Position numbers and translations under genes: made by a program. A stretch of DNA of 50,748 bases from assembly GCA_021801355.1 (NCBI GenBank), contig JAJYYB010000010.1, positions 128,272-179,019 of the forward strand. The letters are read 5' to 3'. The notes under the pieces were generated by a model. It was given only the letters and a program-made list of their open reading frames with translations. It was not told the DNA's origin and did no database searches. Shown here piece by piece: positions 17,947 to 43,656 of this stretch. Within the stretch, counting starts at the first letter, position 1; every line of letters begins with the position of its first letter. The stretch comes from Microcaldota archaeon. Its GTDB lineage: Archaea; Micrarchaeota; Micrarchaeia; Micrarchaeales; Micrarchaeaceae.

Positions 17947-18795
17947 TTAATTGTATTTATAGAATCCTTCGCCTGCCTTCCTCCCGAGTTTGCCTTCTTT
18001 GACAAGCTTCACCAAAAGAGGTGAGGGCTTGAACTTCTCCTCTTTTGTTTCAAGATATATGAAGTCCATTATGTCCTTGCATACGTCCAGACCTATGAAG
18101 TCCGCAAGTTCTATTGGACCCATCGGATGATTGAAGCCAAGTTTTGCTATAGAGTCTATTGCCTCCTTTTCGGCTATGCCTTTTTCGAGGGCAGTGATTG
18201 ACTCATTAATGAACACCATCAGTATCCTGTTTGATATGAAACCAGGGGCATCGTTAACCTTGACTGGTATCTTGTTCATGGAAGTTATGAAAGCAAGCGA
18301 CTCATCAACTGTCTTTTTTGATGTCTTCTCCCCGACCACCACTTCGACTAGTTTCATTACATTGGCCGGATTGAAAAAATGCAGACCTATGAACCTGCTT
18401 GGATCACTTACTGCAGTAGCAAGCCTGTTTATCAGTATAGACGACGTATTTGTAGCCAATATCGAATCCTTTGAACAGAATTTATCCGCGTTCTTGAATA
18501 TCTCGAGCTTTAGGTCTATGAGTTCTGGTACTGCCTCCATTATTATTGAGGAATCCTTAATCGCGTCCATAGTTTGGGACAGCTTTACACGCTTTAGCAT
18601 CGCTTCCTTTTCTTGTGCCGTAATTTTCCCTTTTTCTAAAGCCTTGTCCAAGTTTGTGGTGAGGCGGGCGAATCCTTTGTTCAGGAAGTCGATGTTCTTG
18701 TCAATCAAGACTACGCTGTAGCCAACCTGTAGCGCTGCCTGCGCTATCCCGGTTCCCATTTGACCTACCCCTATTACTGTTATCTCTTGGCCCAT
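17947..18795 (-). CDS. 3-hydroxyacyl-CoA (3-hydroxybutyryl-CoA) dehydrogenase
   Basis: NAD(P)-dependent oxidation of 3-hydroxyacyl-CoA to 3-ketoacyl-CoA. The 282 residues match the monofunctional short form. The dinucleotide fold starts with VIGVGQMGTGIAQAAL (GxGxxG). LATNTSSILIN (catalytic Ser area) and FIGLHFFNPANVMKLVEVV (catalytic His) follow. The C-terminal domain contains NDAPGFISNRILM and GFNHPMGPIELADFIGLD. The gene starts 1 base after the thiolase stop on the same strand and completes the beta-oxidation set. Confidence 0.96.
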   Translation of the reverse strand: MGQEITVIGVGQMGTGIAQAALQVGYSVVLIDKNIDFLNKGFARLTTNLDKALEKGKITAQEKEAMLKRVKLSQTMDAIKDSSIIMEAVPELIDLKLEIFKNADKFCSKDSILATNTSSILINRLATAVSDPSRFIGLHFFNPANVMKLVEVVVGEKTSKKTVDESLAFITSMNKIPVKVNDAPGFISNRILMVFINESITALEKGIAEKEAIDSIAKLGFNHPMGPIELADFIGLDVCKDIMDFIYLETKEEKFKPSPLLVKLVKEGKLGRKAGEGFYKYN

Positions 18796-18796
18796 T

Positions 18797-20047
18797 TCAA
18801 CTTACCCTTCTTATTATCATCGCAGCTGCTCCTCCGCCGCCATGGCAAAGCGAGGCCATTCCAAGGTCCTTCTTTCTATCTTGCATCGCATAGATGAGCG
18901 TTGTTAGTATCCTTGCGCCTGATGCACCTATAGGATGGCCGAGTGCCGTAGCACCGCCGTTAACGTTAAGCCTTTTTATGTCTATGCCAAGTTCCCTTAC
19001 AACGCTAAGTGCCTGGACGCAGAATGCCTCGTTCAGCTCTATAAGATCTACAGAGTCGAGCTTTTCACCGGCTTTGTCAAGCGCCCTGCGCATTGCAGTG
19101 CTTGGCGCTACGCCGTACCAGCTCGGGTCTATGCCAGAGGATGCGAAGGACTCTATCTTCGCAATCGGCTTCAGACCTAATTCCTTCACTTTTCTCCCGG
19201 AGGCCAGAATAACGAAAGATGCCCCATCGCTTATCTGGGACGCGTTGCCCGCAGTTATAGTGCCATTCTCACCGAACGCGGGCTTGAGACTCGCAAGTTT
19301 CTTGATGTCAGTATCATGCCTTATTCCCTCATCCTTATCGAACTCTGATCCTGAACCGAGTTTTATTGGTATTATCTCGCGCTTGAACTTTCCTCCGTCT
19401 GTTGCAGCAGCAGCCTTCATATGGCTTTCAAAAGCGAAGGCGTCCTGCTCCTCTCTTGATATGCCGTATTTTCCGCCCAGCTTCTCCGCTATGGCGCCCA
19501 TGTGCAGATTCGTATAGCAATCCCAAAGACCTGCGAAAATCAGCTCGTCAGTAAGCTCCGCCTTTGATGGGTCATTTCCAGCACCGGAAAGGTAGGTGCT
19601 GAATTCCTTGATGCTGGTATTTCCTAGCTTTTTGAACTGCCTCACGCCTTTAATGGTGTGCGGTGCGTTGCTCATGCTTTCTATGCCCCCAGCGATTATC
19701 AGCTCTGAATTTCCAGAACTTATAGACGCTGAACCAACGCCTATGGCTCTCAGCCCTGATGCACAGACCATGTTGACGTTTGTGCTAGAAACGCCGTTTG
19801 GCAGACCGGAATAAACGATTACCTGCTTGGCAGGATTTTGGCCGAGCCCTGCTGATATGACATTGCCAGCTATCAGCTCTTCTATCTGTTCTTTGGGAAT
19901 GCTGTTCCTTGCGAGCATGCCCTTTACCACTGCGGCGCCGATTTGAGGCGCGGAGAATTCAGTGAGCGAGCCAAGAAACTTGCCTATGGCGCTTCGTGAC
20001 GCATCGATTATATAAACATCTTCCATCTTAAAACCGCAAATGATCAT
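18797..20047 (-). CDS. Acetyl-CoA acetyltransferase / 3-ketoacyl-CoA thiolase
   Basis: Canonical thiolase: cleaves 3-ketoacyl-CoA with CoA, or condenses two acetyl-CoA. All catalytic features are visible in the 416 residues: the nucleophile in NMVCASGLRA, ELNEAFCVQAL, the His in GGATALGHPIGASG and the second Cys in LCHGGGG. The frame start at 20047 overlaps the upstream hydratase by 4 bases (ATGA). A second start at 20026 (MEDVYIIDASR) gives the more usual thiolase N terminus. It contrasts with the Cys-less thiolase-like protein in the same island. Confidence 0.95.
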   Translation of the reverse strand: MIICGFKMEDVYIIDASRSAIGKFLGSLTEFSAPQIGAAVVKGMLARNSIPKEQIEELIAGNVISAGLGQNPAKQVIVYSGLPNGVSSTNVNMVCASGLRAIGVGSASISSGNSELIIAGGIESMSNAPHTIKGVRQFKKLGNTSIKEFSTYLSGAGNDPSKAELTDELIFAGLWDCYTNLHMGAIAEKLGGKYGISREEQDAFAFESHMKAAAATDGGKFKREIIPIKLGSGSEFDKDEGIRHDTDIKKLASLKPAFGENGTITAGNASQISDGASFVILASGRKVKELGLKPIAKIESFASSGIDPSWYGVAPSTAMRRALDKAGEKLDSVDLIELNEAFCVQALSVVRELGIDIKRLNVNGGATALGHPIGASGARILTTLIYAMQDRKKDLGMASLCHGGGGAAAMIIRRVS

Positions 20048-20823
20048 TTGAAATTCGGCTTGCGCTTCTGCAGGAAAGCGTCCATCCCTTCCTTCCTGTC
20101 CGGATGCTCAAAGCACTCGACGAAGAGCTGTTTCTCAATTTTGTATCCGGTGGGATGGAAACTCTCGTTAACCACACGTTTTGAGGCTTTCACCGAATTG
20201 AAGCTGTTCGCGCTTATCTTGCCTATCAGCTCGTCCACCTTGGATTCAAGCTCTGCCTTGCCTACGACGTAGTTCACAAGGCCTAGCCTTAGGGCCTCAT
20301 CAGCCCCTATTGATTCACCTGTGAATATGAGCTCCTTTGATTTCGATACTCCGATAAGCTGGGTCAGGCGCTGCGTCCCACCCGCTCCTGGTATTACGCC
20401 AATCTTTATTTCAGGTTGGCCGAAAAGTGATGTTGAGGTAGCTACCCTTATGTCACATGCCATTGCTATCTCATTGCCAAGACCAAAGCAGTACCCGTCT
20501 ATTGCCGCGATAACTACTTTATCAATCGATTCTATAAGGAAGCCCAGACCTTGAACAGAATCTATGAACGTCTCGGCCTCCTGCTTGGACTTAAGGCCAT
20601 TTAGGTAGTTTATGTCAGTGCCGGCGCAGAATGCCTTGCCGCCTGCACCGGATATTACTATGCTGCGCACCGAGTCATCTTTCCCCAGCTCATTAAGAAG
20701 CAGAGACATCTTGTCTATGGTGGGCTTATCGAATGCGTTGAGTTTGCCAGGCCTGTTCACGGTAATTACTACCTTGCTGCCTGTTTTGGACATGAGTATG
20801 TTCTCTTCATCCATAAGTGCCAT
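20044..20823 (-). CDS. Enoyl-CoA hydratase/isomerase (crotonase family), copy 2
   Basis: 259 residues, paralogous to the gene at 17161-17931. Motifs are GKAFCAGTDINYLNG, then GLGNEIAMACDIRVA and FGQPEIKIGVIPGAGGTQR with both catalytic glutamates. The first glycine-rich motif reads GLGNE rather than GGGLE, so substrate preference may differ. It is first in a three-gene operon (hydratase, thiolase, dehydrogenase) with overlapping or abutting genes. The end (FEHPDRKEGMDAFLQKRKP) is a standard crotonase tail. Confidence 0.94.
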   Translation of the reverse strand: MALMDEENILMSKTGSKVVITVNRPGKLNAFDKPTIDKMSLLLNELGKDDSVRSIVISGAGGKAFCAGTDINYLNGLKSKQEAETFIDSVQGLGFLIESIDKVVIAAIDGYCFGLGNEIAMACDIRVATSTSLFGQPEIKIGVIPGAGGTQRLTQLIGVSKSKELIFTGESIGADEALRLGLVNYVVGKAELESKVDELIGKISANSFNSVKASKRVVNESFHPTGYKIEKQLFVECFEHPDRKEGMDAFLQKRKPNFK

Positions 20824-20874: not shown

Positions 20875-21207
20875 TTACTTTTTCGAGCTTGCCTTGTACT
20901 TCTTTATAAGTTCTACGGCAAGAGCCACTGCCCTGTTTACATCGGCAGAAGTCCTCGTTCCTGTGCATATTATCTTGCCGTTCTTGAAAAGCAAGAGCGC
21001 TGCCTTTGGGTCGTGAACCTTCAGGATTGCACCAGGGAACTGCTCAGGCTCATAGTCTATGTCGTGCGAAGAACTTGCAAGGCCGTATAAGTCCAGATCG
21101 GTGTTTAGATCAGCGCTTGCGACTATGTTTTCTACCCTGTAGGTAGGTTTTAGTATAACGTGCTTGTGAGGAGGCGATATGGGCCTGTTAGGCGAGCTTT
21201 TTGCCAT
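20875..21207 (-). CDS. Single-repeat TBP-like protein (half TATA-binding protein)
   Basis: About 110 residues from ATG 21207 (a GTG at 21216 is in frame). After a short Pro/Lys-rich leader comes one TBP repeat: VENIVASADLNTDLDL, DYEPEQFPGAILKVHDPKAA, LLLFKNGKIICTGTRTSADV and a closing helix AVALAVELIKKY. Archaeal TBP has two such repeats in about 180 residues; here only one is encoded. No second repeat lies in any frame between this gene and its neighbours (51 bases downstream, 86 upstream). It could work as a homodimer or be a paralogue beside a full TBP elsewhere. A TATA tract is near 21236-21248. Confidence 0.85.
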   Translation of the reverse strand: MAKSSPNRPISPPHKHVILKPTYRVENIVASADLNTDLDLYGLASSSHDIDYEPEQFPGAILKVHDPKAALLLFKNGKIICTGTRTSADVNRAVALAVELIKKYKASSKK

Positions 21208-21256
21208 GGAGAACACCGATGATTTATTTGCAACTAAACTATATATATGTTGTGCA

Positions 21257-21264
21257 TTTAAATA
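21257..21264 (+). promoter_or_regulatory. TATA box of the L21e gene
   Basis: tttaaata lies 30 bases before the L21e ATG, in the 86-base region shared with the divergent TBP-like gene, whose own TATA tract (atatatat) is about 10 bases away. The two promoters are close enough to compete. Confidence 0.5.
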
Positions 21265-21293
21265 CTCTACAGTCTAATTTAGACGTGGTTTTC

Positions 21294-21584
21294 ATGACGA
21301 AGCGTTCACATGGATTATTTATTGGGAGGACTAGGCACCTTTCAAGGCACCATAAGCCTTCCTCGCTCGGCCTCACCAGCAGGATAAAGAGCTTCGAGAT
21401 AGGGGATAAGGTGGCGATAGTGCCGAAGGGCAACGTAAAGAACATACCACATCCAAGATTCAGGGGCAGGATAGGCAGCGTCGTTGAGAAGAGGGGATCC
21501 GCCTACGTTGTCGAGGTTCGCATGATGAATGCTATTAGGCAGGTAATAGTCCCGGCAATACATCTTGAAAAGGCGCAGTCCTGA
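21294..21584 (+). CDS. rpl21e: Large ribosomal subunit protein L21e
   Basis: 96 residues from ATG 21294. The basic N-terminal part (GRTRHLSRHHKPSS) is followed by an SH3-like barrel: FEIGDKVAIVPKGNVKNIPH, FRGRIGSVVEKRGSAYVVEV and the terminal IVPAIHLEKAQ. The open frame extends upstream to 21201, but the extra residues are not L21e-like. In many archaea L21e, RpoF and DUF655 form one operon; here L21e is on the opposite strand and converges on the DUF655 gene. Confidence 0.95.
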   Translation: MTKRSHGLFIGRTRHLSRHHKPSSLGLTSRIKSFEIGDKVAIVPKGNVKNIPHPRFRGRIGSVVEKRGSAYVVEVRMMNAIRQVIVPAIHLEKAQS

Positions 21585-21594
21585 GAAAAAGACA

Positions 21595-22182
21595 TCAATA
21601 CCTCTGATCCTTCTTGACGTAAGGCTTCACGAACATGTAGAACCTTTGATTGCCCTGCAGTTCCAACAGCACCCTGTCCGCTATGAGCTTTATCGGATCC
21701 TGCAGCAGTGCGACGCGCGCGGCTATGTCTGAGAATGACTCGAACTTCTTCTCATCTCTCGCCTTAAGTATTGCGGTGAGGTGCTTCTTGCCTATGCCTG
21801 GCAGAAGCTCGAGCGAATGCTGCCTTATGTTGAGCGGGCCTGCGTTGTTGAAAAGCTCCACGAACCTTGGCTCTGTGCCATTTATTATCTGGCTTACTAT
21901 AAGAGGCAGCTCATTCTTTGCGTTCTGGGTCAGGTCGAAGTATTCGACCCTAGTCTTTATCATTGCAATCTTGTCGCGCTCCGCCCTACCTATGTAAACG
22001 CGCTCAGAAGGCTTAAGCGCGACTCCTAGCTTTGGCTCGGCCTCAAGAAGCGTGAACCATGTATCGCCTATTATCTGGGCGACCGGTTCTGCCCTGTTAG
22101 AAAAAGACTTGCCAGTAAGAAGGAAGTCGAGGACGTATGCGTATTCCTCACGGCGCTCTTCATGCTTCTCTTCGTTTTCCAT
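21595..22182 (-). CDS. DUF655 family protein (helix-hairpin-helix, nucleic-acid binding)
   Basis: 195 residues from ATG 22182. The N-terminal part (YAYVLDFLLTGKSFSN, GDTWFTLLEAEPK, ERVYIGRAERDKI) is the S1-like half of the DUF655 family. The C-terminal half contains a helix-hairpin-helix LELLPGIGKKHLTAILKARD that should bind nucleic acid. The family is archaeal, commonly next to rpoF and L21e, and is presumed to act in RNA or translation-related processes; its exact role is unknown. An in-frame TTG at 22200 is less likely as start. Confidence 0.9.
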   Translation of the reverse strand: MENEEKHEERREEYAYVLDFLLTGKSFSNRAEPVAQIIGDTWFTLLEAEPKLGVALKPSERVYIGRAERDKIAMIKTRVEYFDLTQNAKNELPLIVSQIINGTEPRFVELFNNAGPLNIRQHSLELLPGIGKKHLTAILKARDEKKFESFSDIAARVALLQDPIKLIADRVLLELQGNQRFYMFVKPYVKKDQRY

Positions 22183-22208
22183 GCACCCAACTTCTTGCAA
22201 GACTGCAT

Positions 22209-22547
22209 TTAAACACTAACCTTCTTTACGATATCGAATACCTTGGCGACCTCGTCGTCCTTGAGCGGCTTCTTGGATCCGGCCATGATCTGCTTGAGCC
22301 CCATCTCGCTCTTCGGGAGCACGCTCAGTACGCTTGCTATCGTGCTGTCATCCATAAGATCCAATTCCTTCAAGGCCTTCCTCGCGCTCTCATACTTTGC
22401 CTTTGGCACTGCGAACTTCTTCGCATGGTCTAAGGCGAGCTGCTGCTCGTATGTGAGATCCTTCCTCTTGCCGAGTATCTCCTCGACATCATTTATCGAA
22501 ACTGCGCTATCAAACTTCGAACTCCTGCCTATCACTAAAACACCCAC
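22209..22547 (-). CDS. rpoF: DNA-directed RNA polymerase subunit F (Rpb4 homologue)
   Basis: 112 residues. Together with subunit E it forms the polymerase stalk that binds RNA and helps promoter opening. The N-terminal strand (VLVIGRSSKF) and the helical HRDC-like domain are visible: LTYEQQLALDHAKKFAVP, ESARKALKELDLMDDSTIAS and LKQIMAGSKKPLKDDEVAKV. The short spacing to the DUF655 gene and the shared strand match the conserved archaeal arrangement. Confidence 0.9.
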   Translation of the reverse strand: MGVLVIGRSSKFDSAVSINDVEEILGKRKDLTYEQQLALDHAKKFAVPKAKYESARKALKELDLMDDSTIASVLSVLPKSEMGLKQIMAGSKKPLKDDEVAKVFDIVKKVSV

Positions 22548-43539: not shown

Positions 43540-43656
43540 TGGCGGGGGCGGGATTTTAACCCGCGGCCTCTAGATTTCTCGTCATCGCAAAAAGCTCATC
43601 ACTCATAATGCTATGCATATGAGTCTAGCGCTCTAAACAGGCTGAGCTACCCCGCC
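43540..43656 (-). tRNA. tRNA with CAT anticodon (Met) and 42-base intron
   Basis: On the minus strand the acceptor stem GGCGGGG pairs with CCCCGCC, discriminator A at 43540, and the T arm is GCGGG-TTAAAAT-CCCGC. The anticodon stem CTAGA/TCTAG encloses CTCATA, an intron, then A, giving the loop CTCATAA with anticodon CAT. The intron (43576-43617, 42 bases) is at the canonical 37/38 site. Elongator Met is the first choice; Ile2 with a modified C34 is possible. No encoded CCA. Confidence 0.9.

Follow-up and report, generated by a model that had tools for sequence, protein, structure and literature searches.

The usual teaching is that TATA-binding protein (TBP) is a universal saddle of two lobes, born of a dimer of halves. 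The gene considered here encodes one lobe. It lies in a stretch of 50,748 nt of the genome of a Microcaldota archaeon (GCA_021801355.1, contig JAJYYB010000010.1, positions 128,272–179,019 of the forward strand), which is referred to below as the window. The question raised by this locus is whether such a half protein may be the general TBP of the organism and, if so, how it could build a saddle at all.

The half-length gene and the TBP complement of its genome

The open reading frame of the single-lobe protein (copy A, 20875–21207, minus strand) runs from the ATG at 21207 to the stop at 20875 and encodes 110 aa, of which residues 23–104 fill the PF00352 repeat (2–85 of its 85 positions; 87.8 bits, E 4e-25, cut-off 22.9). 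The first-pass annotation had proposed that the protein carries one TBP repeat instead of the two (about 180 aa) expected of a TBP, and the single PF00352 match bears this out. Ten two-repeat NCBIfam TBP models score 65–84 bits on copy A against cut-offs of 181–347, and the two lobes of each structure-solved archaeal TBP, aligned one at a time, fall on the same part of the chain. The flanking gaps are of 51 and 86 bases, exactly as had been noted in arguing that they leave no room for a missing repeat, and no second TBP repeat was found in them.

The shorter gap leads to an enoyl-CoA hydratase gene (start 20823, minus strand; Pfam). This gene adjoins thiolase-like and 3-hydroxyacyl-CoA dehydrogenase-like genes, assigned by eye, and together they make up a beta-oxidation-like cluster (17947–20823, minus strand) in an archaeon with a genome of 1 Mb. 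The longer gap (21208–21293) is a putative divergent promoter region between copy A and the gene of ribosomal protein eL21 (21294–21584, plus strand; PF01157, 56 bits), and contains the TATA-like elements TATATATA at 21240–21248 and TTTAAATA at about 21257–21265. Next come a DUF655 protein (21595–22200, minus strand; PF04919, 194 bits) and an Rpb4-like subunit F of RNA polymerase (22209–22547, minus strand), the latter identified by synteny and by a PF03874 match of 23.2 bits (E 9e-5) that is just below the curated cut-off of 25.6. Elsewhere in the window, a tRNA gene of 117 bases (43540–43656, minus strand), detected by Rfam and missed by ARAGORN, probably contains an intron.

PF00352 picks out two genes in the source genome (1.07 Mb, 96% complete). 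Each encodes a single lobe, copy A lying in the window and copy B on contig C3. The whole-genome search for a full-length TBP, which had been suggested as a check, found none, and the PF00352 profile and a canonical two-lobe TBP query led to the same two places only. With the canonical query, no two-lobe TBP was detected either in six complete or near-complete relatives (G034, G013, G051, G049, G176 and G180), which showed single lobes only; the sole extra match in these seven genomes was a weak one (E 0.07) in a 296-aa frame. The half TBPs are 36–48% identical to canonical TBP, and a partner lobe may have diverged beyond the reach of sequence search. One of these relatives, Ca. Micrarchaeum sp. 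A_DKE (G034, NZ_CP060530.1), is a cultured member of the window's family with a complete chromosome (the genus Micrarchaeum is placed in Micrarchaeaceae by NCBI); two single-lobe genes are the only TBP genes found in this chromosome. The TFB of the source genome has the usual two cyclin repeats, as does the TFB in all 10 of the genomes checked for it.

Half-length TBPs across Micrarchaeota and related phyla

The phylum-wide search gave TBP matches in 214 of 223 genomes. As tallied from the resulting table, 15 families (f1, f2, f13–f24 and f26; 144 genomes) are single-lobe and 11 (f3–f12 and f25; 70 genomes) have both repeats in one frame of roughly 190–230 aa, as read among the matches listed. 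Half-length TBP is a trait of whole families that make up most of the phylum Micrarchaeota. Half genes usually number two per genome in f1; f2 genomes have one or two, and most other single-lobe families have one. In the window's family the number is exactly two in nearly all genomes, and many genomes of its sister family have one only. Genomes assembled as a single contig and carrying only half genes include G012, G013, G028, G034 (A_DKE, with two) and G051 (with one). A frameshift or an assembly artefact is rejected on these grounds, in agreement with the first-pass annotation, which had reasoned that the short frame was no simple frameshift: related half genes are shared by the 144 genomes of the single-lobe families, complete chromosomes included. 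Beyond what that annotation had described, the trait proves to be lineage-wide, a second half gene (copy B) exists, and the lobes of the two-repeat TBPs of the phylum are unusually similar to each other.

Two exceptions were seen within the single-lobe families. In G014 (L104; G014:C43:2733-3251) a small contig, which is perhaps foreign, encodes a canonical two-lobe TBP whose lobes group with canonical lobes. In G071 (L026, at the end of contig C39) two half-TBP copies, identical at 98 of 99 bases, are fused in frame, perhaps through tandem duplication in the very recent past, or else as an effect of the assembly. Outside Micrarchaeota, single lobes were found in a small third phylum and in one genome of Iainarchaeota (Diapherotrites), G237; the other Iainarchaeota have two-lobe TBPs. 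No half TBPs were found among the 11 viral matches, 10 of which have two lobes in one frame and one of which has two adjacent short frames.

Several other unusual TBP-like proteins were observed during this survey. L219 of the third phylum (G250:C8:9538-10695) is a 726-aa frame with four TBP lobes (PF00352, 239 bits in four stretches), after which come a hydrophobic segment and more sequence. L221/L223 (G256:C1:23919-24398; 217 aa) combines a lipoprotein-like signal (LLAGC) with two TBP repeats, as if the TBP fold were exported. Many Iainarchaeota genomes encode an extra protein of about 90–118 aa whose weak TBP match (about 19–32 bits) covers the later part of the repeat (e.g. G302:C46:71835-72029 and G290:C7:25815-26012).

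In a synteny test by tblastn of the window's neighbour genes against the fetched TBP loci, eL21, the Rpb4-like gene and DUF655 were found to accompany TBP across Micrarchaeota, be it one-lobe or two-lobe, and their company was weaker in the two other phyla. Since half and two-lobe TBPs alike are found at this eL21/Rpb4/DUF655 locus, we regard copy A as the positional orthologue of the Micrarchaeota TBP; copy B sits away from this locus.

These data bear on the proposal of a regulatory or inhibitory half protein beside a real TBP that was missed by assembly. Small TBP paralogues do exist elsewhere and some of the genomes are incomplete, but the single-contig genomes named above have half genes only, the 144 genomes of the single-lobe families concur, and copy A occupies the main TBP locus. 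The inhibitory role put forward at first pass would, moreover, have no full-length TBP in the source genome to act upon. We consider this explanation largely refuted and scarcely credible.

Functional residues, fold and promoters

The roles of individual TBP positions in DNA contact, DNA kinking and formation of the TFB-binding stirrup are here those known from the established TBP–DNA and TBP–TFB structures. Among 81 single lobes the DNA contact and kink positions are kept as follows: N27 in 81, V29 in 80, F57 in 81, F74 in 81, I80 in 81 (Val in canonical lobes) and T82 in 70. The stirrup is likewise kept (E53 in 81/81, E55 in 80/81 and Q56 in 81/81), as in canonical C lobes, and both copies A and B have stirrups of this C type. 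The residue before the central Asn is Q in copy B, as in canonical C lobes, and mostly E in copy A, as in N lobes. After the second Phe, FKNGK replaces F-x-SGK, with the K present in all of the 81 single lobes and the N in 80.

The AlphaFold2 model of copy A (pLDDT 93) matched only TBPs in the PDB below E 0.001, each over one lobe, with rmsd values against single TBP lobes of mostly 0.8–1.4 over about 80 columns. The predicted structure is thus that of a TBP lobe; lack of this fold had been named in advance as an outcome that would speak against the identification. Set beside canonical archaeal TBPs (P. woesei 1pcz/1ais, M. jannaschii 2z8u and S. acidocaldarius 1mp9), the half TBP shares the fold of one lobe, the kinking phenylalanines, the central Asn and Val, the Thr and the EPEQFPG stirrup, and its genome likewise has TFB and TATA promoters; it differs in having one lobe, in FKNGK for F-x-SGK and in its place in the tree, apart from the groups of canonical N lobes and C lobes. 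With the two-lobe TBPs of other Micrarchaeota, Iainarchaeota and the third phylum it has the locus, the FKNGK signature and the lobe clade in common, and the difference is that they carry two lobes per chain.

The conserved residues also bear on the suggestion that the protein has a TBP-like fold with an unrelated function, such as RNA binding or repair. Domains resembling TBP are indeed found in bacterial proteins, RNase H3 among them (PMC7221094, PMC4132731), but the half TBPs are close in sequence to the transcription TBPs, retain both the TBP functional residues and the TBP locus, and occur in genomes that have no other TBP. An unrelated RNA or DNA binder, as the first-pass annotation had also envisaged, is accordingly poorly supported for a positional orthologue of two-repeat TBP, and we find it most improbable.

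TATA-like hexamers are enriched 24–55 bases before the start codon in the half-TBP genomes G000 (z 2.9 to 5.2) and G051 (z 4.8 to 5.3), and the two-lobe genome G080 shows the same enrichment (z up to 6.3). Motif discovery in G051 produced a purine/AA element and then a TATA box; BRE followed by TATA is the usual archaeal order. Held-out tests of the BRE-plus-TATA motif, made on small sets, gave weak results. Symmetry of the TATA element, considered as a sign of a homodimer, was not rejected in any of three genomes and did not discriminate between them. Judging from these upstream sequences, the half-TBP genomes keep TATA boxes, to which the half protein would presumably bind.

That the half protein serves as general TBP of its lineage is the most likely reading, since no other TBP is present, the residues needed for function are kept, the gene stands at the TBP locus, and TFB and TATA boxes are retained. 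We have considerable confidence that copy A is this general TBP in half-length form and that it would act as a dimer, either with itself or with copy B. Two single-lobe chains very probably join via the strand that normally links both halves of TBP and would so restore the saddle of 10 strands on the TATA box. Where a genome has a single half gene, the dimer would be a homodimer; A-A, B-B or A-B pairs may form in the window's family, where A and B coexist. Every lobe has both of the DNA-kinking phenylalanines, and its TFB stirrup is of the C-lobe type. A symmetric dimer would present two equal stirrups to TFB, and the direction of transcription would therefore rest on the TFB–BRE contact; A-B pairing could restore asymmetry, and hence direction, in the window's family. 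A two-lobe TBP of the third phylum, the lobes of which are 79% identical, was modelled by AlphaFold2 with pLDDT 94 and matched whole saddles (best TM 0.83–0.92). The model indicates that two nearly identical lobes can form a saddle, this one-chain relative serving as a proxy for the dimer. The homodimeric TBP suggested at first pass fares well in the light of these data.

A single lobe might also work as a monomer, TFB holding the half saddle on DNA without a second lobe. TFB could well stabilise such a half saddle, genomes with one half gene exist, and the dimerisation of half TBP is something that we infer. On the other hand, N27 and V29 of the central strand, beside the dyad, are kept in the lobe together with both phenylalanines, two-lobe forms recur at the half-TBP locus, and in all known TBPs both lobes contact the 8 bp of TATA. 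We therefore judge the monomer to be quite unlikely and prefer the dimer.

Ancestry of the lobes

Identity between the N and C lobes is 50–80% in Micrarchaeota and the third phylum, mostly 45–63% in Iainarchaeota and 39–56% in canonical TBPs. Lobe trees were built from 87 columns with a canonical sample of five to six TBPs, archaea outside the three phyla being represented by PDB, plasmid and viral TBPs only; L232, a canonical-looking protein from an Iainarchaeota genome that falls among canonical lobes, was omitted from the smaller tree. One branch separates the lobes of the three phyla, be they single, N or C, from the canonical N and C lobes (99/92), and a tree constrained to unite every N lobe on one side and every C lobe on the other is rejected (AU p = 0.0007). 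That this signal is due solely to the LLLFKNGK stretch was considered and discarded, as both results survive its removal (98/90 and p = 0.0045). Because the N-versus-C constraint is rejected, the two-lobe TBPs of the three phyla are not orthologous to canonical TBP lobe for lobe. Within Micrarchaeota, separation of N from C lobes was not rejected (AU p = 0.23), nor was it within subgroups.

The trees suggest that either a single-lobe ancestor was later re-duplicated or the lobes were homogenised by gene conversion. The identity between lobes at third bases is high in several two-lobe proteins, which would fit a recent duplication or conversion, and the bootstrap branches hint that there may have been at least three re-duplications. 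Whether the common ancestor of the three phyla reverted to one lobe, with two-lobe TBP rebuilt by new duplications, is in our estimation an evenly balanced matter. It is nevertheless more likely than that the single lobes are uninterrupted descendants of a half-TBP predating the original TBP duplication, a reading to which we give very little credence. The single lobe may instead derive from a canonical N lobe or from a canonical C lobe; holding the canonical N lobes together gave p = 0.24. The tree of TBP repeats called for at first pass sets the single lobes apart from the canonical ones. The single-repeat ancestor invoked there is suggested for the clade of Micrarchaeota, Iainarchaeota and the third phylum only, and a relic from before the founding duplication is unlikely.

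Copies A and B both trace back to single lobes of the sister-family kind (100/92), and wherever both genes were examined in the window's family, each of the two types was represented once. The idea that A and B are a canonical TBP split into an N-lobe and a C-lobe gene is not supported, since they group with the sister-family lobes. A related possibility, a special case of the dimer model for the window's family only, is that A and B form an obligate split TBP in which the heterodimer alone works. The presence of exactly two half genes in nearly every genome of the family, and the C-lobe-like Q of copy B opposite the mostly N-lobe-like E of copy A, speak in its favour; their descent from sister-family single lobes and not from canonical N and C lobes, the many sister-family genomes with one half gene and the C-type stirrup in both copies speak against it. 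We hold an obligate heterodimer to be rather doubtful, and the broader dimer model, with A-A, B-B or A-B pairs, is preferred.

In the literature, one sentence of Ravarani et al. 2020 (PMC7221094) mentions single-lobe TBPs found in archaea and credits Brindefalk et al. 2013. It gives no lineage, locus or mechanism, and its proteins probably include some of the half TBPs described here. A 2021 survey of DPANN genomes (PMC8407392) reported TBP simply as conserved. Beyond that one sentence we found no account of a lineage-wide half-TBP replacement, of the shared locus or of a dimeric mechanism, part of which Brindefalk et al. 2013 may cover.

Whole archaeal families, one member of which is kept in laboratory co-culture, thus appear to run all of their transcription on free TBP halves, while relatives carry a fused TBP at the same locus. 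If the reversal and re-duplication are true, the founding event of TBP has been replayed in these phyla. The dimeric TBP, its orientation on promoters and the duplication that created TBP would in this way become directly testable in living organisms.
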